From assembly GCA_024643645.1 (NCBI GenBank), contig JAHEMN010000002.1, positions 20,175 to 84,174 of the forward strand: a DNA stretch of 64,000 nt, written 5' to 3'. The translations under genes and the position numbers were made by a program. Below are positions 3,279-22,252 of this stretch, piece after piece (within the stretch, counting starts at the first letter, position 1; the number at the start of each line of letters is the position of its first letter). Under the pieces are notes generated by a model. It searched no databases and was not told the origin of the DNA. It worked only from the letters and a program-made list of their open reading frames with translations. Source of the stretch: Chitinophagaceae bacterium. GTDB taxonomy: Bacteria; Bacteroidota; Bacteroidia; Chitinophagales; Chitinophagaceae.

Positions 3279-5705
3279 ATGACGATCTCATATAAATGGC
3301 TAAGTGAATATTTACCCGTAACAGTTGAACCAGAAAGGTTAAGCCGTATTCTCACTTCAATAGGTTTGGAAGTTGAGAGTATGTATCAATACGAAGAAGT
3401 AAAAGGTGGATTAAAGGGCCTTGTAATTGGTGAAGTTTTAAGTACAGAAAAACATCCAAATGCAGATAAGCTGACAGTTACAAAAGTTACTATTGGCCAA
3501 AATGAGCCTTTACAAATTGTATGCGGAGCACCTAATGTTGCTGAAGGGCAAAAAGTAGTTGTTGCTACTGTTGGCACAACTATCTATCCGTTAAATGATG
3601 ATCCTCTGACAATGAAAGTAGCAAAGATCAGAAGTGTAGAAAGTCATGGAATGATCTGTGCTGAAGACGAAATAGGATTAGGAACTTCTCACGACGGAAT
3701 TATGGTACTACCTGATGATGCAAAAGTTGGTACCGCTGCTGCTGAATATTTTCAACCTTATGAGGATGTGGTATATGAAATCGGACTTACTCCAAACCGA
3801 ATGGATGCTATGAGCCATTGGGGAGTAGCCAGAGATGTATGTGCTTATCTGAGCCACCATGATAAACAGGATTTGAAACCAAAAACCCTAATATCAAATG
3901 GTTTTAAAATTGATAATAGCTCATTGACATTGGATGTATCTGTGGAAAATGAAACCGCTTGTCCCAGATATTCCGGCGTCAGTATTGCAAATGTTTCCAT
4001 TACAACTTCTCCAAAATGGCTGCAGCAAAAATTAAAAGCTATCGGCCTCAGGCCCATCAATAATATCGTTGATATAACTAATTTCATTCAGCATGAAACA
4101 GGGCAACCTTTACATGCATTTGATATAGATAAGATCACCGGTAAGAAGATCATTGTAAAAAATCTTCCAGAAGGAACCGGGTTTATTACGCTGGATGAGA
4201 AAAAAAGAACCTTGAATGCAGAAGATCTGATGATATGTGATGCAGCAGAAGGCATGTGCATAGCTGGTGTTTTTGGAGGAATACATAGTGGCGTTACAGA
4301 TACTACAAAAAACATCTTTCTTGAAAGTGCATTTTTTGATGCTGTAGCAATAAGAAAAACCTCTTTCCGACATGGACTTAGAACCGATGCTGCCAGCCGA
4401 TTTGAAAAAGGAACGGATATTTCTGCTACTGTAAACGTTTTAAAAAGAGCTGCGAAGCTTATTAAAGAGATTGCAGGAGGAGAAATCGCTTCTGAAATAG
4501 TGGATATATATCCAACTGTAAAACCAAAAACTGAAGTAGCTGTAAAATGGCATTTCATTAAAAAATTAAGTGGTAAAAATTATCACCCGGATGCTGTAAA
4601 GGATATTCTTAACAGCCTTGGTTTTGAAACACTCAAAGAAGGTATTGATGAGTTGCGGGTTGCTGTACCTTATCATAAACCAGACATTAGTTTTCCTGCT
4701 GATCTTGTAGAAGAGATCGTTCGAATAGACGGATTGGATAATATTGAAATACCATCATCAATAACAATTACACCAGCAGTTGACGAGAACTTTGAGAAAG
4801 AAATATTCTTTGAAAAAACGGCAAATTATTTAGTGGGCCAGGGATTCAATGAAATGATGACCAACTCCATCACTAATGCAGCCTATTTTTCTGAAGAAGA
4901 AAAGGAAAATATGGTTATTATGCTGAATAGCCTGAGTGCAGAATTAAATATATTACGCAATTCATTATTTGAAACTTCATTAGAAGTAGTAGCACATAAT
5001 CTCAATCATAAAAATAATTCTCTTCGCCTTTTTGAATTTGGTAAAGCTTATTCAAACGAAGGAAACAGCAAGTACAATGAAGATGCAAGGCTAAGTATTG
5101 TTATTGCCGGAAATAAAAATGATGACCACTGGAACCAAAAAGCCATAGCAGCTGATTTCTATACACTGAAAGGTATTGTTGAAGCAATCATGAATTTGTT
5201 GGGAGTTGAACCCGATTCAATTGAAAAGAATGAAGTACCTAAACTTCATAATCATATTGTTTTTAAATTAAATAATTTAATGCTGGGAGCTGCCGGAGAA
5301 GTTAAGAAGACAATACTAGAAAAATTTGGAATAAAACAACCCGTTTTTTATGCTGAGCTTAATTGGTCGGCTTTGTATGCGTTTGCATCAAAACAAAAAA
5401 ATAAAGTAAAGGAAATTTCAAAATATCCTTTGGTACAAAGAGACCTTGCAATGATCGTTTCCAAAGAATTGAAATGGGATGAAGTACAAAAAACAGTACA
5501 AAAGATCAAATTGAATAAATTACAGGACATTAAATTGTTTGATATTTTTGAAAGTGAAAAATTAGGTAACAATAAAAAATCGCTGGCTGTTAACTTTACT
5601 TTTCAGGATGAAGAAAAAACGTTGACAGACAAAGAAATTGATGGTTGGATGAATAAGATCATGTCTGCCATGGAAAAAGAACTACAGGCTGAAATCAGAA
5701 AATGA
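3279..5705 (+). CDS. pheT: Phenylalanine--tRNA ligase subunit beta
   Basis: 808 aa; MTISYKWLSEYLPV, tRNA-binding domain VTKVTIGQNEPLQIVCGAPNVAEGQKV, B3/4 and FDX-ACB domains. Confidence 0.96.
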   Translation: MTISYKWLSEYLPVTVEPERLSRILTSIGLEVESMYQYEEVKGGLKGLVIGEVLSTEKHPNADKLTVTKVTIGQNEPLQIVCGAPNVAEGQKVVVATVGTTIYPLNDDPLTMKVAKIRSVESHGMICAEDEIGLGTSHDGIMVLPDDAKVGTAAAEYFQPYEDVVYEIGLTPNRMDAMSHWGVARDVCAYLSHHDKQDLKPKTLISNGFKIDNSSLTLDVSVENETACPRYSGVSIANVSITTSPKWLQQKLKAIGLRPINNIVDITNFIQHETGQPLHAFDIDKITGKKIIVKNLPEGTGFITLDEKKRTLNAEDLMICDAAEGMCIAGVFGGIHSGVTDTTKNIFLESAFFDAVAIRKTSFRHGLRTDAASRFEKGTDISATVNVLKRAAKLIKEIAGGEIASEIVDIYPTVKPKTEVAVKWHFIKKLSGKNYHPDAVKDILNSLGFETLKEGIDELRVAVPYHKPDISFPADLVEEIVRIDGLDNIEIPSSITITPAVDENFEKEIFFEKTANYLVGQGFNEMMTNSITNAAYFSEEEKENMVIMLNSLSAELNILRNSLFETSLEVVAHNLNHKNNSLRLFEFGKAYSNEGNSKYNEDARLSIVIAGNKNDDHWNQKAIAADFYTLKGIVEAIMNLLGVEPDSIEKNEVPKLHNHIVFKLNNLMLGAAGEVKKTILEKFGIKQPVFYAELNWSALYAFASKQKNKVKEISKYPLVQRDLAMIVSKELKWDEVQKTVQKIKLNKLQDIKLFDIFESEKLGNNKKSLAVNFTFQDEEKTLTDKEIDGWMNKIMSAMEKELQAEIRK

Positions 5706-5989
5706 GTAGTACAGAACAACATTTAAAAAGAATACAGAATAAACTTCAACTATTATTGAAGGAGCATATTGCTGTGCAAAAGGAGAATGCTAAGTTGAAA
5801 GAAGACTTAAAAGATGCTGAACAAAAAATTGTTACTCAGCAAAAGAATATGGACCAATTGAAACAACAGGTAAGTATATTAAAAGTAACCTCAGGAGATA
5901 TGAGTGCAGCTGATAAAAAGGATTTTGAGAAAAGGATAAATGGCTATCTGAAAGAAATTGACCGTTGTATTACGATGCTTGGGCAATAA
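5702..5989 (+). CDS. Coiled-coil protein upstream of zapA (hypothetical; ZapB/ZauP-like candidate)
   Basis: 95 aa, heptad-rich; ATGA overlap with the pheT stop. Confidence 0.75.
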   Translation: MSSTEQHLKRIQNKLQLLLKEHIAVQKENAKLKEDLKDAEQKIVTQQKNMDQLKQQVSILKVTSGDMSAADKKDFEKRINGYLKEIDRCITMLGQ

Positions 5990-5998
5990 AGTCCGACA

Positions 5999-6253
5999 TT
6001 AGACTCTTTTCACAAGATTCATTTTCATTTCATTGTCACCGTGAGAAAGTTCCAATGTATACCTTCCATAAGGCAGATCACTTAAACCGGCCCAGGTCAT
6101 TTCTTCAAAATCAGCAATTATGTCTTTTTCGATAGTACGACAAACACATCCTGCATCATCCTTTAACACTCCACGAAGACAAATTCCTTTGGGTGCAGAT
6201 AGTTGTAATCGCAGCGCATCAATAAAAACTGATGACTTAACTTTAGCAAACAT
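5999..6253 (-). CDS. Hypothetical protein (84 aa)
   Basis: MFAKVKSSVFIDALRLQLSAPKGICLRGVLKDDAGCVCRTIEKDIIADFEEMTWAGLSDLPYGRYTLELSHGDNEMKMNLVKRV; protein-like composition, preferred over the antisense ORF 6120..6320. Confidence 0.65.
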   Translation of the reverse strand: MFAKVKSSVFIDALRLQLSAPKGICLRGVLKDDAGCVCRTIEKDIIADFEEMTWAGLSDLPYGRYTLELSHGDNEMKMNLVKRV

Positions 6254-6378
6254 GGCAATTATATTAAATAAAAAAATCGTTTACACAATGGCTTTTAACC
6301 AATATTACAAGCGGGTATGAATTTGAGGATAATTAATGGGTAACTAATATAATAAAATATTACTAAAAAAACCAATAT

Positions 6379-6672
6379 ATGAGTGATTTAATTGCAATTT
6401 CTGCTTTGATCGGTGACCGTAATTATCGTATTAAAATCGAGCCAGCAGATGAAGAAGTAGTTAGAAAAACCCTCAAAACAATAAACGAAAAGATCGTTGA
6501 ATTTAAAACCATGTTTGCCGGTAAGGATATGCAGGACTATATAGCTATGGTGTTGATCTGGTATGCGACCGAGCAAAATGCCGGAACTGCAGCGGGGTTA
6601 GAAAAACTAAACCTAACGGATCAATTATCCACAATAGAAAAATTATTAGATGGTCAGTTAGATAACAAATAA
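6379..6672 (+). CDS. zapA: Cell division protein ZapA
   Basis: 97 aa; ISALIGDRNYRIKIEPADEEVVRKTLKTINEKIVEFKTMFAGKDMQDYIAMVLI. Confidence 0.85.
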   Translation: MSDLIAISALIGDRNYRIKIEPADEEVVRKTLKTINEKIVEFKTMFAGKDMQDYIAMVLIWYATEQNAGTAAGLEKLNLTDQLSTIEKLLDGQLDNK

Positions 6673-6799
6673 TAATTCTTTATTGGGTGAATTCCGGGAT
6701 TTATCTCAGTTAAAATCAATATATCAACGTATTAGAATTGACCACTTTATCCAATAATTGAAGTTAATTTTCAATTTTCCACTATTACCCCTCGTTTTG

Positions 6800-6833
6800 T
6801 ATCTTCGCTATTAATCCCGACATTTCGTCGGGA
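6800..6833 (+). promoter_or_regulatory. Putative rny promoter (-7 TATCTTCG) and 5' leader hairpin
   Basis: TATCTTCG at 6800-6807; TCCCGAC-ATTTC-GTCGGGA 7-bp stem at 6815-6833. Confidence 0.45.
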
Positions 6834-6882
6834 AATTTAATATTAAGAAATAGCATTGTGCAACATCTAAACAAACACATTC

Positions 6883-8448
6883 ATGGATCCGAATATATTA
6901 TCTATCATAGTAGGCTCTGTTGCCCTTATTGTAGGGCTCATAGCGGGTAAATTCATATTTGCCAAAAACACAAAAAAGAAAATTGAAGAAGCAGAAATCC
7001 AGTCTCAATCCATCCTAAAAGAAGCCGCTCTAAGAGCTGAAACAATACGAAAAGAAAAGGAGCTGGAAGCCAAAGAGAGATTTGTTCAATTAAAATCCGC
7101 TCATGATAAAGAGGTCATGGATAAGACCAAAAAGATGAACGATGCGGAAAACCGAACCCGGCAGAAAGAACAATCCATCAACCAAAAAGAATCAAATCTT
7201 GATAAGCAGATCAAAGAAAATGATGCTATCAAAGAAAATCTGAACCGTCAGATACAACTGGTGAATATAAAAAGAACTGAACTGGAAAAACACCAGGAAG
7301 AGCATATTCGCCGGTTAGAAAAAATTGCAACTTTAACTGCTGAAGAAGCAAAATCACAATTAATAGAAAGTCTGAAAAGTGAGGCACATACCCAGGCGGT
7401 AGGTATCCAACAGGAGATCATTGATGATGCCAAGCAAAAGGCCAATAAAGAAGCAAGAAAAATTATAATTCAAACTATTCAGCGAACTGCGGCAGAACAA
7501 GCAATTGAAAATACGATCACTGTTTTCAATCTTGAAAGTGATGAGATCAAAGGCCAGATCATCGGTCGTGAGGGCCGAAATATCCGTGCCATTGAAGCAG
7601 CAACCGGTGTTGACCTGATCGTTGATGATACACCGGAAGCTATCCTTCTTTCTTCATTTGACCCTCTTCGCAGAGAAATTGCCCGTTTAAGTCTGCAGCG
7701 TTTGGTTGCTGATGGACGTATACACCCGGCAAGAATTGAAGAAGTTGTCGAAAAGACAAAAAAGCAGATAGAAGAACAAGTAAGAGAAATTGGTGAAAGG
7801 ACTGTGATTGAAATGGGAATACATGGATTACATAAAGAATTAGTGAGAATGGTAGGCCGTATGCGTTTCCGTTCTTCTTATGGTCAGAACCTTTTAATGC
7901 ACAGCCGTGAAACTGCTAATCTTTGTGCTACAATGGCTGCCGAATTGGGGTTAAATGCCAAACTAGCCAAAAGAGCCGGATTACTACATGATATTGGTAA
8001 AGTACCGGATGAAGAAAGTGAATTAAGCCATGCTTTATTAGGTGCTAAACTTGCAGAAAAATATGGTGAAAATCCTGCTGTTGTAAATGCAATAGGTGCC
8101 CACCATGATGAAATGGAGATGCAATATGTAATTTCTCCTATTGTACAGGCATGTGATGCCATCAGCGGTGCAAGACCCGGTGCCCGAAGAGAGATTATGC
8201 AGCAATATCTGCAACGGATCAAAGACCTTGAGAACCTGGCAATGGCGTATGATGGGGTGGAAAAAGCCTATGCTATTCAAGCAGGACGGGAACTAAGGGT
8301 AATTGTAGAGGCAGACAAAGTAACAGATCAGGAATCTGATAAATTATCTTTTGAGATTGCCCAGAAAATACAAACTGAAATGACCTTTCCCGGACAAATA
8401 AAAGTTACCGTCATCAGAGAAAAAAGAGCAGTTAATGTGGCGAGATAA
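6883..8448 (+). CDS. rny: Ribonuclease Y
   Basis: 521 aa; N-terminal TM, long coiled coil, KH domain ([33 protein letters not shown]), HD domain ([11 protein letters not shown]). Confidence 0.96.
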
Positions 8449-8556
8449 TAATTTAGTATTTAAGTGATTATAGAGTAAAGTTTCAGTGTTTTGCCGATTG
8501 GTGAAATTTGAAAAAAAACATTGACCATTAAACTATAATTTTTAAACTGATTCCCT

Positions 8557-8564
8557 TACCTTTG
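8557..8564 (+). promoter_or_regulatory. -7 element TACCTTTG upstream of rplS
   Basis: Exact TAnnTTTG match 20 nt before the rplS ATG. Confidence 0.5.
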
Positions 8565-8584
8565 CCCTCCTAAAAATCAGGAAT

Positions 8585-8947
8585 ATGAACGCTATAGCAT
8601 ATGTACATGAGCAGTTGACCGGCAAAAAAGAATTCCCAAAATTCAAAGCCGGTGATAACATTACAGTTAATTATAAGATCATTGAAGGAAATAAGGAAAG
8701 GATCCAGTCTTTCAAGGGTGATGTAATTAAAAAGCAAGGTACCGGAGCTACTGCAAGTTTTACTGTTCGTAAAATTTCTGACGGAATTGGTGTAGAAAGA
8801 GTTTTCCCTTTCTTTTCTCCAAATGTTGATTCAATAGTTGTGAATAAAACTGGTAATGTACGCAGAGCAAAGTTATTCTATCAGCGTAGCCGTAGTGGTA
8901 AGAGTGCCAGAATCCGTGAAAAACGTATGATCGTTTCTAACAATTAA
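8585..8947 (+). CDS. rplS: 50S ribosomal protein L19
   Basis: 120 aa; FKAGDNITVNYKIIEGNKERIQSFKGDVIKKQGTG...RRAKLFYQRSRSGKSARIREKR. Confidence 0.96.
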   Translation: MNAIAYVHEQLTGKKEFPKFKAGDNITVNYKIIEGNKERIQSFKGDVIKKQGTGATASFTVRKISDGIGVERVFPFFSPNVDSIVVNKTGNVRRAKLFYQRSRSGKSARIREKRMIVSNN

Positions 8948-8966
8948 TAGTTTTAATAAATAATTT

Positions 8967-8999
8967 AAAAGCTTTCCAATAAAAAGGAAAGCTTTTTTT
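8967..8999 (+). terminator. Intrinsic terminator after rplS
   Basis: AAAGCTTTCC-loop-GGAAAGCTTTTTTT. Confidence 0.85.
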
Positions 9000-9051
9000 A
9001 TTAAATGCTGTTAAATAATAACATATTAGTCCTTTATTTTTCGATACTTAC

Positions 9052-9059
9052 TATCTTTG
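9052..9059 (+). promoter_or_regulatory. -7 element TATCTTTG upstream of tatA
   Basis: Exact TAnnTTTG match 20 nt before the ATG at 9079. Confidence 0.5.
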
Positions 9060-9078
9060 ATTTCTAATTATTTTGATT

Positions 9079-9288
9079 ATGATACAACCAACTTTATTGG
9101 GTGTGCTTGGTACTAATGAGATTGTTATCATTCTTGTGATCGTACTTTTATTATTTGGAGGTAAAAAAATACCTGAGTTGATGCGTGGATTAGGTAAAGG
9201 TGTCCGTGAATTTAATGACGCCAAAACAAATGTGAAGAAAGAGATCGAGGAAAGTGCAAATGATGTAAAGAACTCTATAAAAGAGTGA
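9079..9288 (+). CDS. tatA: Sec-independent protein translocase TatA/TatE family
   Basis: [52 protein letters not shown] at 9079 preferred over the TTG at 9073 used in the ORF track. Confidence 0.9.
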
Positions 9289-9314
9289 TCCTCTATTGAT
9301 TTTTTCTTACGCTA

Positions 9315-10757
9315 ATGTCATCGATTTTGTTTGAATTCGCTTCCATTGAGCAATACCATGCACAATTACAGGAAGGAAATGTAACCTGCTTGCAAATTGC
9401 AGAGCATTATCTGAATCGTATTGAAGAAACTAAACATCTCAATGCATTTATTGAAGTGTATAGAGATGAAGTTTTACAGCAAGCAAAATCTTTAGATGAA
9501 AAAAGAAAGTCTGGTAAACCTATCGGTAAGCTGCATGGCGTTATAATTGGCTTGAAAGATGTAATCTGTTACAAAGACCATACAGTTTCAGCAGCTTCAA
9601 AGATCCTTAAGAACTTTACTTCAATTTATTCTGCTACTGCTGTAGAAAGATTACTGGCAGAAGATGCTATAATAATCGGCAATTTGAATTGTGATGAATT
9701 TGCCATGGGTTCAACAAATGAAAACTCGGCATATGGCAAAGTGCTGAATGCATTGGATGAAACAAAAGTACCGGGAGGTTCTTCAGGCGGCTCTGCAGTG
9801 GCTGTACAAGCTGGCTGCTGTATGGTTTCACTGGGAAGTGATACCGGCGGTTCTGTTCGTCAACCCGCAGATTTTTGTGGTATCATAGGACTGAAGCCTA
9901 CTTATGGAAGAATTTCCAGATACGGACTTATTGCGTATGCTTCTTCTTTTGATCAAATAGGGATTTTTGGTAAATGTATTCCTGATGTTGCCTTGTTATT
10001 AGAGGTTATGTCGGGCGCCGATGAATTTGATAGTACCGTTTCTCATCAGGAAGTACCGGCTTATTCAAAACAACTTCAATCAGACAAAAAATACCGGATT
10101 GCTTATTTCGAAGAAGCATTAACTCATCCCGGACTGGATCCGGAAATTGGTTCAACCATTAAAAATAAAATTGAAGAATTGAAGCAGGATGGTCACACCA
10201 TCGAACCTGTTTCTTTTAATCTCCTGAATTATGTTGTTCCTGCATATTATGTGTTAACCACAGCTGAGGCATCTTCAAATCTTTCCCGGTTTGATGGCAT
10301 TAAATATGGCTATCGCTCCGATGCCCCCGGAATTGAATTAACAGAATTTTATAAGCAGAGCAGATCTGCTGGTTTTGGTAAAGAAGTAAAGCGAAGGATC
10401 ATGCTTGGAACATTTGTTTTAAGTGCCGGATACTATGATGCATACTTTACCAGGGCTCAAAAAGTAAGAAAATTACTAAATGACCAGATAGAACTGGTTT
10501 TCAAAGACTTCGACTTTATTATTCTTCCCACCTCCCCTGTTACAGCCTTCAAAGCCGGCGAAAAAATGGACGACCCTATCGCCATGTATCTTGCAGATAT
10601 TTACACAGTTATGGCCAATCTGGCAGGAATTCCAGCCATTTCAATTCCACTATTCAAACATAGCAACAATATGCCCTTTGGCCTCCAATTGATGGCAAAC
10701 CGGTTTAATGAAGTATCTTTGCTGCGAATTTCAAACCTGCTTTTAGTAGGAAATTGA
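9315..10757 (+). CDS. gatA: Asp-tRNA(Asn)/Glu-tRNA(Gln) amidotransferase subunit GatA
   Basis: 480 aa amidase signature VPGGSSGGSAVAVQAGCCMVSLGSDTGGSVRQPADFCGIIGLKPTYGRISRYGLIAYASSFDQIG. Confidence 0.93.
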   Translation: MSSILFEFASIEQYHAQLQEGNVTCLQIAEHYLNRIEETKHLNAFIEVYRDEVLQQAKSLDEKRKSGKPIGKLHGVIIGLKDVICYKDHTVSAASKILKNFTSIYSATAVERLLAEDAIIIGNLNCDEFAMGSTNENSAYGKVLNALDETKVPGGSSGGSAVAVQAGCCMVSLGSDTGGSVRQPADFCGIIGLKPTYGRISRYGLIAYASSFDQIGIFGKCIPDVALLLEVMSGADEFDSTVSHQEVPAYSKQLQSDKKYRIAYFEEALTHPGLDPEIGSTIKNKIEELKQDGHTIEPVSFNLLNYVVPAYYVLTTAEASSNLSRFDGIKYGYRSDAPGIELTEFYKQSRSAGFGKEVKRRIMLGTFVLSAGYYDAYFTRAQKVRKLLNDQIELVFKDFDFIILPTSPVTAFKAGEKMDDPIAMYLADIYTVMANLAGIPAISIPLFKHSNNMPFGLQLMANRFNEVSLLRISNLLLVGN

Positions 10758-10783
10758 TTGTAAAACGTTAATAATCATACGGT

Positions 10784-11854
10784 TTGAGGAAATTGAAGCA
10801 AATATCGATACTTAGTATTTCAGGTTTTTTATTAGTTCAGGTTGCCAGATCTGCTGGCATTGATCAGGATATGAACAATAGATCAGTTTTTAATGATACC
10901 ACGTTAAATAATGATTCCCTTGATCAAAATGCAACACTAAAAACAGATCCGAAAAAGGATTTTAAAAATCTTTTTACAACGGCAGTATTTGGTGATGGGA
11001 TCAATAGTCCCAAATTAAATCCCATGGCAATAAGTTTTGTCGAAAAATATATTTCAAAAAACAAACGGGGTTTTATGAACATGAAGGATTGGGCCAAACC
11101 CAAATTCGACATGATGGATAAGGTTTTAAGTGAACATGGTTTACCTGTTGAACTGAAATATCTGGCAGTGATTGAGTCCGGTTTAAAATACAATGCAAAA
11201 TCCTTTACAGGGGCCGTTGGGCCATGGGCATTTATGCCTGCAGCTGCAAGACAATATGGATTAAAAATGAGCCGGAATAATGATGAGCGGCTGGATTATT
11301 ATAAAAGTACACATGCTGCAGCAAGACTGTTGACAGATCTATATGAACAATATGGTGATTGGCTATTAGTAATTGCCGCCTATAATAGTGGGCCCGGTAA
11401 TGTGAGCAAAGCAATCCGAAGAAGTGGAGGAAGTAAAGACTTCTGGACCATTCAACATTTTCTACCTAATGAAACAATGAATCATGTTAAGAAATTCATT
11501 GCTGTACATTACATTTTTGAAGGGGAAGGAGGAATCACTACAGTTACAAAAAGTGAATTGAAGGATCTCGTACTAAATGCGGGAAGTAATTTGAAAGAAG
11601 ATGAATTAAACACTTCTACATCCTACAAAATAACAGGTCGTTTCAGCGCTGCAATCATTAAAAAGTATGTAGACCTGGATCATACTACATTCAATCGTTA
11701 CAATCCTAATTTCGATAACGAAATAGCATTGAACGGAACATACGAACTTCGTTTACCTACACAAAAGATGAACATCTTTGTTGCCAAGAGATATGAAATT
11801 CTGGATGAAAGTATCAAACTGCTTTTGAACCAGACTAATACCGGAACAAATTAA
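10784..11854 (+). CDS. Lytic transglycosylase (SLT domain, MltD-like)
   Basis: 356 aa; ESGLKYNAKSFTGAVGPWAFMPAAARQYGLKMS...AAYNSGPGNVSKAI; N-terminal signal; likely TTG start. Confidence 0.85.
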   Translation: MRKLKQISILSISGFLLVQVARSAGIDQDMNNRSVFNDTTLNNDSLDQNATLKTDPKKDFKNLFTTAVFGDGINSPKLNPMAISFVEKYISKNKRGFMNMKDWAKPKFDMMDKVLSEHGLPVELKYLAVIESGLKYNAKSFTGAVGPWAFMPAAARQYGLKMSRNNDERLDYYKSTHAAARLLTDLYEQYGDWLLVIAAYNSGPGNVSKAIRRSGGSKDFWTIQHFLPNETMNHVKKFIAVHYIFEGEGGITTVTKSELKDLVLNAGSNLKEDELNTSTSYKITGRFSAAIIKKYVDLDHTTFNRYNPNFDNEIALNGTYELRLPTQKMNIFVAKRYEILDESIKLLLNQTNTGTN

Positions 11855-11866
11855 TTCATATACTAT

Positions 11867-13159
11867 TTACTCCAAGACCTTTTTCATTGCATTTACTTTC
11901 ATCAAACATTCTTCCCATTCTTTTTCCGGATCACTATAGAATGTAATTCCTGAACCTGCAGGAAATGATAAGTATCCTGATGTTTCATTAAATAAGATAC
12001 TTCTTATCACTACATTAAAATCAAAATTTCCTGAAGGATCAATATAACCAAGGGCACCGGAAAAAACTCCTCTTTTGGTAAGTTCAAATTCTTCTATCAA
12101 CTCCATTACTCTCTTTTTTGGAGCCCCCGTCATAGAACCCATTGGAAAAGTTGCTTTAATTATTTCTGAAAATGAAATATCGTTTTTTAATTTGCCGCTC
12201 ACCGTTGAGATCATCTGGTGTACCTGTGGAAAGGAATATATTCCATAAAGTTCGTCTACTACCACTGACCCTTCTTCACAGATCTTTGCAAGATCATTTC
12301 TTACAAGATCCACCACCATTACATTTTCTGACCTGTCTTTAGCACTATTGTATAATTCCTTTTTACTTAAATCATCTCTAGTATTGTCTCCATTTATTCG
12401 TATCGAGGTACCCTTTATAGGCTGTGACAATATATTGTATCCCTCTTTTTTTAAATAACGTTCAGGACTGGCACAAATAAGCCACTGATCTTTCATCCTA
12501 TATAATGCAGAAAAAGGATTAGGTGAAACCTCGCTTAAATTATTATAGATGTAAATTGGATCGATACTTGCATTGACAGAATAAAATTCCTGACAATAAT
12601 TGATCTCGTAACAATCTCCCCGCAGGATATGCTTTTTCAATTCATTTATTGCAGTTGTATATGCACTCTTTGAAAGCCTGCTTTGAATTGAATTTTTAAT
12701 GGCGGACGAACTAGTAGTTGGTTCAATTTGTATTTCAGCTATTTCATTGAATATTTGCAGTGGATCGTTTGCTTCGATGCAAATTGAATTTCCGGAAAGT
12801 TTAATCAATACTTCAGGCTCAAAGAAAAATAAATCAGGAAACTTTAATCCGTTTTCCTTTTTTGAAGATTGTTGTTCAATCTCATTTTTAAGATCATATC
12901 CAAGATGCCCAAATAACCAGGAGTTTTTATTATCAATAAATATTTGAAGCTGATCCAGCGATGATCCGGCCTGTAAACTTATATTTCTTTTTATTCCGGC
13001 TGCCAATAAACATTCTAATGAATTTGGCTTTATCTGGTATTGGTGGTTGTCCAAAAAACAAAAAGTGCTGAACTGTCTTGCCCAGTTCAGCACTTTCTTC
13101 TTCATTAGATCAAACTCACTGATATCAAAATTGCAATTAGTATTGGTAGTTTTATTCAA
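11867..13159 (-). CDS. pabB: Aminodeoxychorismate synthase component I / anthranilate synthase component I-like
   Basis: Chorismate-binding domain: LKKHILRGDCYEINYCQEF, ASPERYLKKEG, PIKGTSIR, MVVDLVRNDLAKIC, KATFPMGSMTGAPKKRVMELIEEFE. Start is TTG 13159 (an in-frame TGA lies 3 codons upstream) or ATG 13105. Confidence 0.85.
   Translation of the reverse strand: MNKTTNTNCNFDISEFDLMKKKVLNWARQFSTFCFLDNHQYQIKPNSLECLLAAGIKRNISLQAGSSLDQLQIFIDNKNSWLFGHLGYDLKNEIEQQSSKKENGLKFPDLFFFEPEVLIKLSGNSICIEANDPLQIFNEIAEIQIEPTTSSSAIKNSIQSRLSKSAYTTAINELKKHILRGDCYEINYCQEFYSVNASIDPIYIYNNLSEVSPNPFSALYRMKDQWLICASPERYLKKEGYNILSQPIKGTSIRINGDNTRDDLSKKELYNSAKDRSENVMVVDLVRNDLAKICEEGSVVVDELYGIYSFPQVHQMISTVSGKLKNDISFSEIIKATFPMGSMTGAPKKRVMELIEEFELTKRGVFSGALGYIDPSGNFDFNVVIRSILFNETSGYLSFPAGSGITFYSDPEKEWEECLMKVNAMKKVLE
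13053..13097 (-). terminator. Intrinsic terminator-like hairpin embedded in the pabB 5' coding region
   Basis: Minus strand: AAAGTGCTGAACTG-GGCAAGA-CAGTTCAGCACTTT followed by TTGTTTTTTGG; 14-bp perfect stem. Confidence 0.75.
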
Positions 13160-13182
13160 ATTAGTTCAACACTGCTGTTCTA

Positions 13183-13605
13183 TTAAAAATCTTCATCGTC
13201 ATCATCATCAAAATCATCTTTATCATCAAACAGATCTTTAAACTCATCATCCAGTTTAAAATCATCATCATCTACCGCTTTTTTACCACCTCCGGATTTT
13301 TTACCCTTTGATGAAGGAGTATCAAACTCTTCAAAGTCCGGATCCCATTCCTCTTCTTCCTCTTCGGGCTTTTCCCAATCATCTGCTTCATCATCTACAT
13401 CATCATCGTCATCATCTTCCTTACCTTTTTTAGAAGACGAAGGTTTTTTCCCTTTTTTTGAAGGATTAATATCTTCATCATCCATCAACTCATCATCATC
13501 TTCTTCTTTTTCAGATTTTGATGAACTTTTTTTGGGAGCTCCTTTAGATGAAGCAGGATTAGTTTTCCCGGAAGTCTTACTTCCTTTTTCTGGTTTAATT
13601 GACAT
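13183..13605 (-). CDS. Highly acidic, low-complexity (Asp/Glu-rich, Lys/Ser-rich N-terminus) protein
   Basis: 140 aa, e.g. EDDDDDDVDDEADDWEKPEEEEEEWDPDFEEFD...DDKDDFDDDDDEDF. Confidence 0.75.
   Translation of the reverse strand: MSIKPEKGSKTSGKTNPASSKGAPKKSSSKSEKEEDDDELMDDEDINPSKKGKKPSSSKKGKEDDDDDDVDDEADDWEKPEEEEEEWDPDFEEFDTPSSKGKKSGGGKKAVDDDDFKLDDEFKDLFDDKDDFDDDDDEDF
13187..13282. repeat. Degenerate ATC/GAT triplet repeat tract encoding the poly-Asp tail
   Basis: ATCGTCATCATCATCAAAATCATC... repeated (ATC)n runs. Confidence 0.5.
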
Positions 13606-13700
13606 GGTATTTACAGGATTATAAGTGTAAAATTTCAGCGAAGTTTTTAATCCGCCAAATTTTTAGTTAGTTTTTTTTATTTTTTATCAAAAAGCAAAAA

Positions 13701-14966
13701 TTATTTCACTTCAACTATCTGTTCCCTTCCCGGCCCATTAGAAATATAATTAATATTTACGCCCAGGTAATTATTAATAAAGTTAATATAGTCTTTCATA
13801 GTTTCAGGTAAATCAGCATAAGAATTTATTGCACTGCTGTCTGAATTCCAACCAGAAAAATTCTTATATACCGGAATTGGTTTTGATCGCTCCATTTGAA
13901 AAGGAATTTCCCTGCTTTTATTTCCGTTCACATCATATTCAGTACAAACCTCTAATTCTTTAAAAGTATCTAATACATCTGCTTTAGTCATTACAATTTT
14001 GGTAACCCCATTGATCATGCATGCAAAATTCAACGCTACCAGATCGATCCAACCACATCTTCTAGGGCGACCGGTTGTAGCTCCAAATTCATTTCCGAGC
14101 TTTCGCAATTCTTCACCTGTTTCATTTTCCAGTTCAGTTGGAAACGGACCACTGCCTACCCGGGTACAATAAGCTTTTGTAATACCTATTACATCTTTTA
14201 TTAGCTGAGGTGCAATTCCTAAGCCACTACAGACACCTGCAGATGTTGTATTGGATGAAGTAACAAACGGGAATGTACCAAAATCAATATCCAACATGCT
14301 TCCCTGAGCACCTTCAGCAAGTATTTTCTTTCCGCTTCTGATCTTTTCATTTATAAAATACTCACCATTAACAATATTCAGTTCTTTTAAAAACTCCAAT
14401 GTTTCAAAAAATTCATTTTCCCATGCAGTAATATCTTCTTCGAAATTGTAGTTATCCAATAATTGTTGATGCTTTGAACGTAATTTATTATAAGAATTTT
14501 TAAAATCCTTATCCAGTAAATCTCCAACTCTCAAACCATTACGTCCTGTTTTATCCATATAAGTTGGTCCAATCCCTTTTAATGTTGAACCGATCTTTTC
14601 ATTTCCTTTAGACAATTCAGCTGCTTTATCTAAAGCCCTGTGTGTTGGAAGAATGAGGTGTGTTCTTTGAGCAATAAAAAGATTCTTCTTTAGATCAACA
14701 CCAAATGATGCAACTGTATCACACTCTTTTTTTAGTGTAACAGGATCAAGCACTACACCATTACCAATCAGATTTGTAATTCCTTCATGAAATATTCCTG
14801 AAGGAATTTGATGGAGAACAACTTTTTTATCTTTAACGTATAATGTATGTCCTGCATTAGGGCCACCCTGGAAACGGGCTACAACGGCATAATCTTTGGC
14901 AAAAAAATCAACAATTTTTCCTTTTCCTTCATCGCCCCACTGGAGGCCAAGTATTACATCTACCAT
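13701..14966 (-). CDS. purA: Adenylosuccinate synthase
   Basis: MVDVILGLQWGDEGKGKIVDFFAKDYAVVARFQGGPNAGHTLY; ORF-track start at 15035 adds 23 non-homologous residues, ATG at 14966 preferred. Confidence 0.95.
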   Translation of the reverse strand: MVDVILGLQWGDEGKGKIVDFFAKDYAVVARFQGGPNAGHTLYVKDKKVVLHQIPSGIFHEGITNLIGNGVVLDPVTLKKECDTVASFGVDLKKNLFIAQRTHLILPTHRALDKAAELSKGNEKIGSTLKGIGPTYMDKTGRNGLRVGDLLDKDFKNSYNKLRSKHQQLLDNYNFEEDITAWENEFFETLEFLKELNIVNGEYFINEKIRSGKKILAEGAQGSMLDIDFGTFPFVTSSNTTSAGVCSGLGIAPQLIKDVIGITKAYCTRVGSGPFPTELENETGEELRKLGNEFGATTGRPRRCGWIDLVALNFACMINGVTKIVMTKADVLDTFKELEVCTEYDVNGNKSREIPFQMERSKPIPVYKNFSGWNSDSSAINSYADLPETMKDYINFINNYLGVNINYISNGPGREQIVEVK

Positions 14967-15034
14967 GCTGCTTTTATTATTTTCCCTTTTCTGATCTGAA
15001 AAGGAACTTGTATTGAAGCAAAAATAAGGGTTCA

Positions 15035-15065
15035 TAAAAAAGCTACCGAATTAAATCCGATAGCT
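15035..15065 (-). terminator. Intrinsic terminator after T9SS type B protein gene
   Basis: Minus strand AGCTATCG-loop-CGGTAGCT (one G.U) followed by TTTTTT. Confidence 0.65.
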
Positions 15066-15101
15066 GTTAATAAGACATTTATTATGTTGATATTATTTTA
15101 A

Positions 15102-18100
15102 TTAACGAATTAAAGTAACGGTACCTTTTTTAGTAATTACCTTGTTATCATTTGCAACAACCTCAATCATCCAAACATATACTCCTGAAGGTTGTTTCAC
15201 CCCTCCAAGATTACCATCCCAACCATCATGTAATCTGTTAGTTGAGAATAATAATTGTCCCCATCGATTAAATACCCGGAAATAATTAAGCCCTTTTATA
15301 CCAACTGGTATCGGTAAAAAACGGTCGTTTCTTCCATCTCCATTAGGAGAAAATGCTGTTGCCACATAAATTTCAGGTCCTTTATATACCCGTACAGTTA
15401 CAAATCCTTCGCCTTTACAACCGGCAATGGTTGAAGTTGTTACCCTGTATTGAACTACATCACCATTTGCACCAAGCGTTACAATCGGATCAGGAATTTT
15501 AGTATCACTTAAACCTGTTGCAGGTGTCCAGGTATAATTAATGACATCCGGATCATTTGGTATAGCCAATAACTGGAACTGATCACCACTGTAACCAATA
15601 GTATCGAAAGGAAAAGTTTTTACTTTAATTGGGGGAGTTACATCAATATAAATCTGATCAGTAACCAAAGATGCACAACCATTTATGTCTGATAAAATAG
15701 AAACAGTATATGTGATATCTTTTGTAGCAGATGAAACAGGGTTTGAAATTGTCGTGCTGCTCAGATAAGTGTCAGGTGACCACAAGTATTGTGTACCACC
15801 AGTTGCCTGCAGTTGATAGGTCTGTCCGAAACATATATATCCATCTGCACCTGCATTAGGGATCGGAGCTGGATTAACGTTTACTATTACCGTATCATTT
15901 GCACTACATCTTCCTAATGTAGCAGTTACAATATATTGGGTAGTGACTGTAGGATTAGCGACAGGATTTGCAATTGTAGTACTACTTAATGCATTAGCTG
16001 GAGTCCATGCATATTGGGTTGCATTTGAGGTTAAACTTAATTGTATTGAATTCCCTTCACAAATCGTTGGGTCTGTTTGAGGAGTCATTGTAAAATTACT
16101 TCCTAATAAAACCGTAGTTGGGAAAGAAGTTGTACAACCCAGGTTATCCCTTACTGTTATTGTAAAGTTACCCGGAGCAACATTAAAAATATTACTGCTT
16201 TGCCAGTTAGTACCACCATCAATAGAATATTCATAACCTGTATTACCGCCAGTAGCAGTTACATCTATAATACCATCATTACCTCCATCACAACTTGCAG
16301 GACTGTTAGCCGAAGTTGCATTTAATGCAACAGGTTCTGTTACAGAAACGGTTTGAGTAGTTATGCAATTGTTAGCATCCCTGATCGTAATAGTATAAGA
16401 TCCGGCAGCTACATTAAAAATATTATTACTCTGCCAGACAGTACCTCCATCGATCGAATACTCATAAGGTGATATACCACCGCCAGAGCTAATAGTAATA
16501 ATGCCATTATTTTGGCCATTACAAATAACCGGTACAAATGCTGAAGAAGCAGTCAACGGTGTAGGCTCAGATACCGAAATGGATAAACTTCCCACACATC
16601 CGTTACTCTCTCTGTAAAAAACAGTATAATTTCCTGCTGCTAATCCATTAAATACATTACTACCCTGCCAACTGATTCCGTCCAATGAATATTCAAATGG
16701 TGCTGTACCGATAGTTGGTTGAGTAACAATTATCGATCCTGTAGCTGAACCACTACATAATGCATCTGTTTTACTTGCAGTTGTAAATAGAGCAGCTCCG
16801 GATGGTATGGACACATTAATTGAATTCGTAACACATCCTATTCCATCTGTTACAACTATTGTGTGTGAACCTGTCATTAATCCTGTAAATGTATAAGGTG
16901 CTGTACCAGGAACAGCTGCAGCACCATCAATAGAAAAAGTATAAGGCGCAACGCCTCCGTTAGGAGTAACTGTTATGGTTCCATTTGCTGCTCCACTACA
17001 CGTAGTAGGTGCTGCTGAAGTAGTAGCTGTTAATGTTGGACCAGCCAGAACACTTTGAGTGATAGATCTTGTACAACCAAAATTATCAGTAATGATAATT
17101 GTATGACTTCCCGAAGAAACATTATTAAACGTATATGGACTTGCTCCACTCTGTACAGGTCCTCCATCTAATTGAAATGTAAATGGTGCTGTCCCTGCTG
17201 TTGCAGTAATGGTGATCGATCCGTTTGAAGCTGTTGGACATGTTGTTGCTGCACTTGTTGCATTAGCTGTAACGCCTGTACCAACTGCAACATTGACACT
17301 TATAGGATTAGAAGTACAACCTGAACTAAGGTCAGTTACAATTACTGTATGTACACCAGGACTAACATTATTAAAAGTATATGGCAATACACCGGGCTGT
17401 GCTATACCGCCATCCAGTGTAAATGTATATGGCCCTATTCCACCAGCTGTATTGATCGTTATCGCTCCATTATTTACACCGCTGCATGAACTTGCTGCCG
17501 AAGACGATGTAGCCGGAAGTGCCCCCGCTAAAGTAACTGTTACAGGAATAGTACGGGTACATAGTAAACTTGCATCTCTGACTTCCACATTGTATATACC
17601 GGCTGTTAAACCATTAAATACATTGCTGCTTTGCCATGTAACTCCATTCAAAGAATATTCATAAGGTGCTGTTCCACCTGTTACTCCTGTTATTGTTATT
17701 GAACCATTGCTTGATCCGCAAGATGCAGCTGCTGAAGAACCATTTCCGGTTAACCCTGCTGATCTGTTAACCCTAACTGTATCAGTTCCAAAAATCTCAA
17801 CTGCAGGATCATCAAACTTTTCATATACAGACCGAATAACATATGATGTAATTGCGCCAACCGGAGAACAAACATTGGGAAATGATGCTTCAAGATTTCC
17901 ATTTCCAACACTGGCAGTTGTACCGGTTGCTATAAGTGTTCCTCCTAGATCATATAATTCAACTCTCTTTAAAAGTGAAGTACCTGTTGAAGGAACAAAT
18001 CGCCATGTTTCATTCATATTTACAGCTCCCCAGGTAGGACCTAATGCAGTTCTTCCCGGAGCCATCATTCCTTGCGTTTTTGTAAAATCCTGAATACCCA

Positions 18101-18812
18101 CAATGGCCCTTCCTGAATTCCAGGAGGTGCAGGTTTGCTTACTCATAATATTTACTTCAATAATACCTGTAGATTCATATAGAATGATCTGATGTGTATT
18201 TTCAAACAATCCTGTACATGAAGAACCAAATAATGGCACTTTATAAAAACTCAATATCCATCTGCGATGTGGTGCTACTCCCCAAACCTGGTATTGAATT
18301 CGTTGCGTTGGTTGCGCAACGTTAGGATTAAGATCATGGTTGGGCCCCATAATTAAAGCTCTGTCATAAGCTGTGCTTGGCAAATCAGATCCTATCGACC
18401 AGTGTGCAAATAAGTTTGCTTTAGAGATATCAAAACTTAAAAAACCGTTTGTACTTGCAATAAGTGAATTATATACAGTACCATAAAATGGAAAAGGGAA
18501 TCCCATATTGATCACACTTGTATAAGTATCATCTACTGTAAGACCTGATGGGGTACCTGCCGGATCGTTTGGAGCAAGGTAAACAGGAAAGCAACCTGTA
18601 GCATTGGGTGAAATGCGATTTAAAGTATATGTATTTGATAGTCGCTTAATATCGGGAATAATCCCTTTTAATGTAATACACAAACCAGGAGGACATCCCG
18701 GCACCAAAGTATCTCTGGAACAATTGAATGAAAAACTTTGTGCTTTAGAAACTTCAGAAAAAAACAGAAAAAAACTAATGTAAACACATAACCGAAGAAT
18801 AAACCGCATCAT
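15102..18812 (-). CDS. T9SS type B sorting domain-containing SprB-repeat surface protein (1236 aa)
   Basis: N-terminal signal, ~330-aa N-terminal module, 7 SprB-like repeats, PKD/Ig-like domains, C-terminal gliding-motility (CHU_C) domain ...ATAFSPNGDGRNDRFLPI...FNRWGQLLFSTNRLHDGWDGN...GVYVWMIEV. Confidence 0.9.
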   Translation of the reverse strand: MMRFILRLCVYISFFLFFSEVSKAQSFSFNCSRDTLVPGCPPGLCITLKGIIPDIKRLSNTYTLNRISPNATGCFPVYLAPNDPAGTPSGLTVDDTYTSVINMGFPFPFYGTVYNSLIASTNGFLSFDISKANLFAHWSIGSDLPSTAYDRALIMGPNHDLNPNVAQPTQRIQYQVWGVAPHRRWILSFYKVPLFGSSCTGLFENTHQIILYESTGIIEVNIMSKQTCTSWNSGRAIVGIQDFTKTQGMMAPGRTALGPTWGAVNMNETWRFVPSTGTSLLKRVELYDLGGTLIATGTTASVGNGNLEASFPNVCSPVGAITSYVIRSVYEKFDDPAVEIFGTDTVRVNRSAGLTGNGSSAAASCGSSNGSITITGVTGGTAPYEYSLNGVTWQSSNVFNGLTAGIYNVEVRDASLLCTRTIPVTVTLAGALPATSSSAASSCSGVNNGAITINTAGGIGPYTFTLDGGIAQPGVLPYTFNNVSPGVHTVIVTDLSSGCTSNPISVNVAVGTGVTANATSAATTCPTASNGSITITATAGTAPFTFQLDGGPVQSGASPYTFNNVSSGSHTIIITDNFGCTRSITQSVLAGPTLTATTSAAPTTCSGAANGTITVTPNGGVAPYTFSIDGAAAVPGTAPYTFTGLMTGSHTIVVTDGIGCVTNSINVSIPSGAALFTTASKTDALCSGSATGSIIVTQPTIGTAPFEYSLDGISWQGSNVFNGLAAGNYTVFYRESNGCVGSLSISVSEPTPLTASSAFVPVICNGQNNGIITISSGGGISPYEYSIDGGTVWQSNNIFNVAAGSYTITIRDANNCITTQTVSVTEPVALNATSANSPASCDGGNDGIIDVTATGGNTGYEYSIDGGTNWQSSNIFNVAPGNFTITVRDNLGCTTSFPTTVLLGSNFTMTPQTDPTICEGNSIQLSLTSNATQYAWTPANALSSTTIANPVANPTVTTQYIVTATLGRCSANDTVIVNVNPAPIPNAGADGYICFGQTYQLQATGGTQYLWSPDTYLSSTTISNPVSSATKDITYTVSILSDINGCASLVTDQIYIDVTPPIKVKTFPFDTIGYSGDQFQLLAIPNDPDVINYTWTPATGLSDTKIPDPIVTLGANGDVVQYRVTTSTIAGCKGEGFVTVRVYKGPEIYVATAFSPNGDGRNDRFLPIPVGIKGLNYFRVFNRWGQLLFSTNRLHDGWDGNLGGVKQPSGVYVWMIEVVANDNKVITKKGTVTLIR
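16105..17740 (-). repeat. Tandem SprB-like repeat array (about 7 units of ~75-80 codons)
   Basis: Recurring (C)xGxxNGxIxIxxxGGxxPYEYSxDG...W(Q)SSNxFNxxxxGxYxxxVxDxxxC units. Confidence 0.75.
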
Positions 18813-18939
18813 AAAATTAAAAAAATGATTTACTGGTGCTAGAACAGCCTAAAACCAACCCGTAAGATAGTAAATTAAAAGTTGAAATTCAAGGAAGTGA
18901 CAGCTGATTTATAAAGCAAAATGATTGAAATCATGGAGT

Positions 18940-21177
18940 TTATGAAGGAATATCTTCCATATCATATCGTTCAACCGATTCAATGCCCGGAAGATTGAGT
19001 AATTGCTGTACCAAATTGTCTAATTCTTCTTTATCATGAACAAAAAGCCTGATATTTCCTTTGAATAATCCCTCTTTTGCTTCAATTGTCAAAGCAGAAA
19101 TATTTATTTTAAGATCCCCAGATATCAGCATGGTTATTTTATTGACCACTCCCACATCATCCATCCCAATAATCTTAATACCGGTCAGAAATGAGATCTC
19201 TTTGTTTTTGGCCCATTTAGTTTTCACTACCCGATGTCCATAGTTGGACAAAAGCTTTGTAGCATTTGGGCAATTAGTACGGTGAATGGTCAAGCCCTTT
19301 CCTGTAGTTACAAAACCAAAAACATCATCTCCCGGTATTGGCTTGCAACAATTTGCAAGATTATAAACTATCTTATCACTACTTTCTCCAAATATTACCA
19401 ATTCAGTTTCCTTCTTGCCCGGTTGAGGAACATATTCAGGTTTTTCAGTCTGAATCTTTACTGGTTTAGGAGCTTCAATTTTATCTCCATGAACATTGAA
19501 TTCTTTCAGGTCCTTAAGGTCAATATTCTTTATGGCTACCTGGTAAAAGAGATCAAGGTTTGAACCTAATTTATACCAATGCACCAGTTCATCAATATTG
19601 TGTTGTGACATCGGCACCCCAACACCTTCCAGTTTTCGCTGCAAAGTATATTTCCCCTCATCAGCTACTTCTCTTTTCTCTTCCTTCAAAGCATCCCTGA
19701 TCCTTCCTTTTGCTTTGGAAGTAACAACAAACGTTAACCAATCTTCTGAAGCTTTTTGTTTATTACTTGTAATGATCTCTACCTGGTCACCACTGTGTAA
19801 TTTATGACTGATAGGAACTAATTTATGATTCACTTTAGCACCGATGGTCTTTACTCCAATTGCACTATGTATTGCAAATGCAAAATCAAGAGCAGTAGAT
19901 CCTACAGGTAACATCTTTACATCTCCCTTTGGAGTATACACATAAATTTCCTCTGCAAGAAAACTTGTTTTAAAGTCTTGCAGAAAATCTATTCCGTCTG
20001 TTTCCTGGTTACTGATCACTTCCCTTATTTGTTGAAACCATTTATCAAAACGACTTTCATCAGTAGTTCCTTCTTTATATTTCCAATGTGCAGCTAATCC
20101 TTTTTCCGCTATTTCATTCATTCTTTTTGTACGTATCTGTACTTCCACCCATCTACCCTGTGGACCCATCACAGTTGTGTGCAACGCTTCATATCCATTT
20201 GATTTTGGATTACTCAACCAATCTCTTAATCTTTCCGGTGATGGGGTGTATTCATCTGTGATCATGGAATAAACTTTCCAGCAATCTTCTTTCTCTTTAG
20301 CAGGAGGAGAATCAAGTATTGCACGGATAGCAAACAGGTCATATACTTCTTCAAAATCTACACCCTTCTTCTTCATCTTATTCCAGATAGAATGAATGCT
20401 TTTGGGACGACCATAAATTTCCCCCTTAAGATTAGCCTTATCAATCTTTTCTTTTATCGGTTTTATAAATTCATTGATGTATCGGGATCTTTCTTTTTTT
20501 GTTTCTGATAACTTTCTTGCAATGTCTTTATAAATTTCCGGCTCCATATATTTCATAGCCAGGTCTTCCATTTCTGTTTTTATATTATAAAGACCCATCC
20601 TGTGTGCCAGCGGAGCATAAACATAGACTGTTTCAGAAGCTATTTTTAATTGCTTTTCTCTCTTCATACTGTCTAGTGTACGCATATTATGCAACCGATC
20701 AGCCAGCTTCATAAGAATAACCCTGGGGTCGTCTGTAAGGGTAAGTAATATCTTTTTAAAATTTTCTGCCTGTTGTGAAGCATTGACATCAATGACATTT
20801 GAGATTTTGGTGAGACCATCGACGATCTTTGATATTTCTTCTCCAAATTCCCTTTTTATATCATCTAAAGAAATATCTGTGTCCTCGACGGTATCATGTA
20901 ATAATGCACAAATTGTAGAACGTACTCCTAAGCCAATTTCCTCTACACATATTTTTGCCACTGCAATAGGATGAAGAATATATGGCTCACCACTTTTTCT
21001 CCGCATTGTTTTATGTGCTTCTGCTGCCATTTCAAATGCAATACGGATCAGGTTCTTATCACCCGGTTTTAATTTAACCTTTAATACCTTCAATAGGGAA
21101 CGATATTCCCTGAGGATAAGCTTCTTTTCCTCCTCATCGTTTAGATTATACTTCGGTATCTGGGCAATAGTTTCCAT
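18940..21177 (-). CDS. RelA/SpoT family bifunctional (p)ppGpp synthetase/hydrolase
   Basis: 745 aa; HD domain (ICALLHDTVEDTD), synthetase (YGRPKSIHSIWNKMKKKGVDFEEVYDLFAIRAI), TGS and ACT domains. Confidence 0.95.
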   Translation of the reverse strand: METIAQIPKYNLNDEEEKKLILREYRSLLKVLKVKLKPGDKNLIRIAFEMAAEAHKTMRRKSGEPYILHPIAVAKICVEEIGLGVRSTICALLHDTVEDTDISLDDIKREFGEEISKIVDGLTKISNVIDVNASQQAENFKKILLTLTDDPRVILMKLADRLHNMRTLDSMKREKQLKIASETVYVYAPLAHRMGLYNIKTEMEDLAMKYMEPEIYKDIARKLSETKKERSRYINEFIKPIKEKIDKANLKGEIYGRPKSIHSIWNKMKKKGVDFEEVYDLFAIRAILDSPPAKEKEDCWKVYSMITDEYTPSPERLRDWLSNPKSNGYEALHTTVMGPQGRWVEVQIRTKRMNEIAEKGLAAHWKYKEGTTDESRFDKWFQQIREVISNQETDGIDFLQDFKTSFLAEEIYVYTPKGDVKMLPVGSTALDFAFAIHSAIGVKTIGAKVNHKLVPISHKLHSGDQVEIITSNKQKASEDWLTFVVTSKAKGRIRDALKEEKREVADEGKYTLQRKLEGVGVPMSQHNIDELVHWYKLGSNLDLFYQVAIKNIDLKDLKEFNVHGDKIEAPKPVKIQTEKPEYVPQPGKKETELVIFGESSDKIVYNLANCCKPIPGDDVFGFVTTGKGLTIHRTNCPNATKLLSNYGHRVVKTKWAKNKEISFLTGIKIIGMDDVGVVNKITMLISGDLKINISALTIEAKEGLFKGNIRLFVHDKEELDNLVQQLLNLPGIESVERYDMEDIPS

Positions 21178-21273
21178 TGTCTACGAATTTACTGATTAAA
21201 GCTTATAGCTCAAAAGAGTGTACAATAAATCCAACAAATATTTTTTATGAGATTTTCAATTTAAAGATCAGAC

Positions 21274-21316
21274 TATAAAAAAAGGATAAGTGTTTATGAA
21301 AAACAGCTTACCCTTT
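21274..21316 (-). terminator. Intrinsic terminator after porP/sprF-like gene
   Basis: Minus strand AAAGGGTAAG-loop-CTTATCCTTTTTTTT. Confidence 0.65.
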
Positions 21317-21337
21317 ATTAAAATTATTCCCTATACT

Positions 21338-22234
21338 CTATTTCAAAAAATCATATTTCAATAAAACCTCATGACCATTTGATCCTTTATCATAAACACT
21401 AAGCGGCGTTCTGAAAATATCAAAACAATATCCAATTGTAAACTTCTTTTGCACTTTTACTCCGGCAGAGATCATCCAGCTTTGTCTGGCCCTTAATGCA
21501 ACTCCCCACCAAAAAACTTCTTTATGTTCTACTCTGGCTCCCCCCTGAAATTCCAATGGTGCATTTGGAAGATAAATGAAAAGAATATTAGGGATGATCT
21601 TTGTACTTTCATCCACTTGCCATTGATAATTGCTATGTAAGTAATAATGACGGTAAAGCCTTGCTTCTTCTGTACGGCTTAAATTCCCGCTGTAAAAATC
21701 CAATTTAGATTGTAACAATTGGCTTACCGAAGCTCCAATTTGAAACTTCGTACCATTATAAGATACACCAAACCCGGCATCACCTTTAAACCGGTTAGCT
21801 GCACCAGCCAGCACAGGGTCATTTCCTAAAGACTCTTGCAATTTGGATTTGTCAATAGAAAATTGCTGAAATCTTGCTTCTAACCCTAATGAAAAAGTAC
21901 CTCCCTTTTTTAATGGAATATGATAGGCGTATGCTGTTTGTAAACCTGTTCTTTTTGTTGGTCCGGTAACATCATTATAAATATAACCACCAATACCAAC
22001 TTTTGCATTCTTCAGATACGCAGAACCAAAGAGTATTGCTGTTTGAGGTCCACCATCAATACCTTCCCACATAGAACGATATGATGCACCAATCACTCCA
22101 TGTTGAGATGCACCTGCAGTAGCAGGATTGTGCAGGTTTCCATGCTGATCATATAAAGAAGCAACAGTTAATTGCTGAGCTTCAACAGAGTTTACAATCA
22201 TAACACCAAGAAAAAAATATATAATACGTTTCAT
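21338..22234 (-). CDS. PorP/SprF family type IX secretion system membrane protein
   Basis: 298 aa; signal peptide, LYDQHGNLHNPATAGASQHGVIGASYRSMWEGIDGGPQTAILFGSAYLKNAKVGIGGYIYNDVTGPTKRTGLQTAYAYHI. Confidence 0.92.
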   Translation of the reverse strand: MKRIIYFFLGVMIVNSVEAQQLTVASLYDQHGNLHNPATAGASQHGVIGASYRSMWEGIDGGPQTAILFGSAYLKNAKVGIGGYIYNDVTGPTKRTGLQTAYAYHIPLKKGGTFSLGLEARFQQFSIDKSKLQESLGNDPVLAGAANRFKGDAGFGVSYNGTKFQIGASVSQLLQSKLDFYSGNLSRTEEARLYRHYYLHSNYQWQVDESTKIIPNILFIYLPNAPLEFQGGARVEHKEVFWWGVALRARQSWMISAGVKVQKKFTIGYCFDIFRTPLSVYDKGSNGHEVLLKYDFLK

Positions 22235-22252
22235 AAATTCTTATTTAAAAAA

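Follow-up and report, generated by a model that had tools for sequence, protein, structure and literature searches.

Within a 64,000-nucleotide stretch from a Chitinophagaceae bacterium (GenBank assembly GCA_024643645.1, contig JAHEMN010000002.1; hereafter the window), we identified a hairpin that proves to be a genuine RNA element, present family-wide and overprinted on the coding sequence of the folate-synthesis gene pabB. Judging from its sequence, its setting and its conservation, we put at roughly three in four the probability that this hairpin is the intrinsic (Rho-independent) terminator of the gene upstream, which encodes an acidic protein, laid over the start of pabB with read-through to pabB.

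The hairpin lies on the minus strand at window positions 13051-13096 and consists of a perfect 14-bp stem, a 7-nt loop and a U-rich tail. Its 5' arm (AAAGTGCTGAACTG, 13083..13096) has an A-rich extension running outward to about 13102, the loop (13076..13082) has its first base within a conserved Trp codon, and the 3' arm (CAGTTCAGCACTTT, 13062..13075) leads into the tail (TTGTTTTTTGG, 13051..13061), which is read as the codons Phe-Cys-Phe-Leu. The original prediction of this stem, loop and U-tract on the minus strand holds in the sequence, although its coordinates (13053-13097) are shifted by one base. It had placed the stem about 20 codons into pabB; the stem begins at codon 22 of the ORF, the hairpin spanning codons about 22-36, and is separated from the stop codon of the acidic-protein gene by 86 nt. 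The hairpin is the strongest terminator-like site in the 19-kb stretch from 5000 to 24000 of the window, and an 81-nt piece containing it folds at -32.9 kcal/mol (z -5.4), with none of 200 dinucleotide shuffles being equally stable. No second copy was found in the genome when up to 3 mismatches were allowed. At the gathering score the hairpin matched no Rfam 15 family, a tRNA being the only match in the window.

Both genes concerned are on the minus strand. The product of pabB (11867..13159, UUG (TTG) start at 13159) is, by its sequence, a PabB-type chorismate-binding enzyme of the aminodeoxychorismate synthase component I type. It matches Pfam Chorismate_bind (E 3e-80), and its best NCBIfam model is TIGR00553 pabB, for which the score of 300.9 bits is under the curated cut-off of 328.4 bits. 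Directly upstream is the proposed owner of the terminator, the acidic-protein gene (13183..13605), the product of which matched no Pfam or NCBIfam model and is not assigned to a family. Its N-terminal half is rich in Lys and Ser and its tail is rich in Asp, ending in a DDDDxDF-like motif, a layout conserved family-wide. The gap between the two genes measures 23 nt, as had been estimated, and holds no leader ORF. Upstream of the acidic-protein gene is a promoter-like block (TTTGGCNNATTAAAAACTTCGCTGAAATTTTACA, 13626..13659, minus strand), which is long, strongly conserved across much of the family and unique in the source genome. The hairpin thus stands where a partial terminator would, separating the gene nearest the putative promoter from the one that follows.

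To assess conservation, pabB sequences were gathered at the level of genus, family and order, and named Chitinophagaceae (among them Niastella, Terrimonas, Niabella, Ferruginibacter and Sediminibacterium) were included. The hairpin, scored as kept when 9 or more of the 11 core pairs could form, was present in 154 of the 167 unique loci from Chitinophagaceae, and all 11 pairs formed in 123 of the 167; stem lengths were mostly 13-21 bp. The peptide encoded across the hairpin aligned without gaps in all cases but one. The gene order is persistent as well, the acidic-protein gene directly preceding pabB in nearly all Chitinophagaceae loci with a median of 75 nt (IQR 70-83) from its stop codon to the start of the stem. 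In loci of the same order from other families the hairpin is missing; where these lack the acidic-protein gene, purA usually precedes pabB. The 13 family loci without the stem retain the gene order, and just two or three of them have a clear replacement hairpin; L179 and L181 carry a shifted hairpin of 10-11 bp. Candidate replacements near the acidic stop codon in two other stem-less loci (L023 and L025) were rejected, being no better than shuffled sequence. In one metagenome-assembled genome (L014, G032:C21) the hairpin and a T8 tail are intact while a deletion shifts the pabB frame, which may mean that pabB has decayed there or that the assembly is wrong. Many same-genus genomes of 1.5-2.1 Mb had no pabB match at all and other small same-genus genomes have a divergent pabB (44-46% identity) with no hairpin; these small genomes may represent a separate reduced lineage.

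Could the hairpin be merely a by-product of the protein, the N-terminal peptide of PabB being conserved? The motif K..L.WA.QF.TFCFLD does recur outside the family and provides A-rich and U-rich flanks. We recoded the same peptide synonymously, using the codon usage of each gene, and compared folding. Across 88 Chitinophagaceae the segment holding the hairpin was far more stable than its recodings (median z -3.3), whereas all other pabB segments gave a z of about 0 and 13 outlying loci (other families and three divergent small genomes) gave a z of -0.3; for single genomes the test was weak in a few (L098, L106 and L076). The stem also retains the unfavoured codons TTC, AAC and AGC. Over a few codons the preference for Phe reverses, TTC being used in 77 of 86 cases in the stem and TTT in 61 of 62 in the tail, where Cys is TGT in 81 of 84. 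The tail holds 8.45 U compared to 7.27 expected from synonymous codons, exceeding expectation in 134 of the 154 loci. A U-rich tract directly after the stem is thus under selection, even though it is interrupted by the Cys codon, is weak in some genomes (L016) and is swallowed by an extended stem in others (L105). Moreover, residues of the peptide change in base-paired sets, and relatives with the same peptide and a broken stem, which had been named in advance as evidence against the prediction, were essentially absent. The codon test refutes the by-product explanation, to which we give next to no credence.

Compensatory change among relatives, proposed at the outset as the check on the stem, was strongly evident. 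In an ungapped alignment, 91.7% of cells in the 17-bp helix were paired, compared to 35-53% when the helix was slid. Double changes were seen in 11 pairs and amounted to 115 cells, where shuffles gave 42. Relatedness is not accounted for in the shuffle control, a weakness from which the slid and codon controls are free. RNAalifold recovered the same stem on its own. In a tree-based sign test of independent double changes the directions mostly agreed, the well-supported pairs being too few for significance. The coupling extends to amino acids: numbering from the ATG at 13105, codons 5 and 14 read Val-Thr in 40 loci, Met-Ile in 95, Val-Ile in 2 and Met-Thr in none, the change from Val..Thr to Met..Ile corresponding to GTG..ACT becoming ATG..ATT, and codons 4 and 15 read Lys-Phe (71), Gln-Cys (41) or Arg-Leu (18). 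Among paired codons CTG-AGC occurred 65 times, TTG-AAC 53 times and the wobble combination TTG-AGC 6 times; the mispaired CTG-AAC was not among the codon pairs listed. Selection for pairing has thus constrained both the codons and the amino acids of PabB.

The pairs also tell which strand is under selection. As a long inverted repeat whose reverse strand likewise scores as terminator-like, the stem could in principle act as a DNA palindrome (an operator or a cruciform) or as a terminator for antisense transcription. However, stem pairs in the 154 loci comprised 1985 Watson-Crick, 214 G:U and 16 A:C, and although these loci were selected for sense-direction pairing, which biases the wobble count, all 167 unselected loci still gave 246 G:U against 43 A:C. 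As A:C is what a G:U wobble on the opposite strand would look like, the excess of G:U means that the structure is kept on the pabB-sense RNA. This asymmetry largely refutes the palindrome and antisense explanations, against which the occurrence of the hairpin as a single copy in the genome also counts, and their chances are negligible. Folding (z -5.4), covariation and wobble asymmetry together place a stable stem-loop on the transcribed strand. The earlier view that such a stem and U-tract could hardly arise by chance is borne out by the shuffles, the codon test, the covariation and the counts over 154 loci.

How would such an element work? In the mechanism that we favour, RNA polymerase would start at the acidic-protein gene's own promoter and run beyond its stop codon, and the hairpin with its U-rich tail would form about 75-90 nt past that codon. 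Ribosomes halted at the stop codon would be too far back to prevent folding, and a ribosome initiating pabB at a weak UUG or GUG would rarely be there in time. Most transcripts would then end at the tail, with pabB being made from the read-through fraction. Placement and resemblance to ordinary terminators speak for termination at this site. In E. coli, terminators work efficiently once they lie more than about 27-30 nt beyond a stop codon, and also in the opening 100 bp of a coding region, where the first ribosome has not caught up (PMC4824070); the position of the pabB hairpin roughly matches these efficient placements. Away from pabB, a covariance model of the hairpin picked out mainly ordinary terminator-like hairpins of the order that immediately follow unrelated genes; their flanks are likewise A-rich and U-rich, and their tails are interrupted by G or C. 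Within the family, the strong matches of the model fall at pabB coordinates. Six of the matches beyond the family or at sites other than pabB were inspected: five are ordinary hairpins in intergenic positions or immediately behind genes, and the sixth (L200) is a pabB with a weak partial hairpin.

One consequence counts against the terminator reading, namely that terminated transcripts would lack a pabB-frame stop codon. In E. coli, a working start codon ahead of a terminator yields non-stop mRNA and lowers expression of the gene upstream by roughly half (PMC4824070). Start codons in the family are of interest here. UUG or GUG is the pabB start in most family members (13159 in the source genome), the position of the start varies among relatives, and a few members have no ATG, GTG or TTG anywhere ahead of the hairpin. 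An in-frame ATG at or upstream of codon 1 was absent in 116 of 154 hairpin loci compared to 9 of 23 others, counts that rest on predicted start sites in genomes related to one another. Such weak starts would be in keeping both with pabB being expressed at a low level and with non-stop translation being avoided, and an in-gene terminator would explain why they are mostly UUG or GUG.

The original prediction had left two alternatives, an overprinted terminator of the upstream gene or an attenuator making pabB depend on translation of its first codons. Our data favour the former, whereas the latter adds a regulatory claim that is undecidable from sequence alone. As an attenuator, the hairpin would be opened by the leading ribosome on the first pabB codons, letting polymerase through, so that pabB transcription would track translation initiation or tRNA charging for those codons. 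It does lie in the pabB frame 60-odd nt past the start and contains a near-invariant Trp codon, and coupling between ribosomes and terminators is established elsewhere (PMC4824070). Yet the starts are weak and variable in position, the Trp is also retained in hairpin-less outgroups, and in E. coli a start codon just before a terminator cut its efficiency by only about 10% (PMC4824070). Nor is there a leader peptide or a conserved, mutually exclusive antiterminator. The sole competing pairing found, between the 3' arm and AGTGTTGAACT (13162-13172, just upstream of the UUG), was rejected as it is absent in the nearest relative (L002). In leader-peptide attenuators such as those of trp and pyrBI, the terminator is close to translated codons, as is the pabB hairpin. 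Unlike them, the latter has neither a leader peptide nor a conserved competing hairpin, and the codons are those of the structural gene itself. We therefore regard regulated attenuation as rather unlikely. Only slightly better are the odds of the broader idea of a family-wide translation-coupled switch, in which the first pabB codons would serve both as protein and as conditional terminator, folate-pathway expression would be set by the rate of ribosome entry into pabB, and pairing would dictate paired amino-acid changes. Less likely again is that the stable hairpin protects a 3' end or marks an RNA-processing site, as an exonuclease stop after Rho-dependent termination or a point of RNase cleavage. 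With mostly 13-21 bp the stems are longer than usual, and pairing is retained even where the U-tract is consumed, as might be expected of such roles; however, the U content of the tail above synonymous expectation, and an architecture shared with the ordinary intergenic terminators of the order, render this explanation improbable.

Like known intrinsic terminators, then, the putative pabB terminator has a GC-containing stem, a short loop and a U-rich tail and stands downstream of a gene with a promoter-like block, and, as in the intergenic terminators of the order, its A-tract pairs with the U-tract. It differs from the usual ones in that all of it falls within the coding sequence of the following gene and that coupled amino-acid changes conserve it family-wide. 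Partial terminators are known to set operon stoichiometry in the ABC importers of cellulolytic Clostridia (PMC9045158); there too a hairpin stands between two genes, and here read-through would likewise set their ratio, but the Clostridia elements are intergenic whereas the pabB hairpin is within an ORF. The lambda tR2 terminator, when engineered to lie within 100 bp of the start of a coding region, stands in much the same place with respect to start and stop codons and was shown to terminate efficiently, giving rise to non-stop mRNA (PMC4824070). That construct is artificial, whereas the pabB hairpin is natural and kept in more than 150 species. We found no earlier description of it in the open-access literature. 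It clearly illustrates how, in nature, a regulatory RNA element and a protein can share their bases, the RNA having visibly imposed coupled amino-acid substitutions in more than 150 species. It would go unnoticed in terminator scans that leave out coding sequence, and it provides a ready system for studying the interaction of ribosome and polymerase at an in-gene terminator in Bacteroidota.

Other features were observed in the window. A bidirectional terminator-like palindrome, AAAAGCTTTCC..GGAAAGCTTTT, is present at 8967-8996. On the minus strand at 15041-15065, a terminator-like hairpin has a U-tract that reaches the ATG (15035) of the longest purA ORF, the true purA start being probably further downstream. 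Also on the minus strand, 15102-18812 encodes a large protein that carries seven SprB repeats together with a CHU_C type IX secretion signal.
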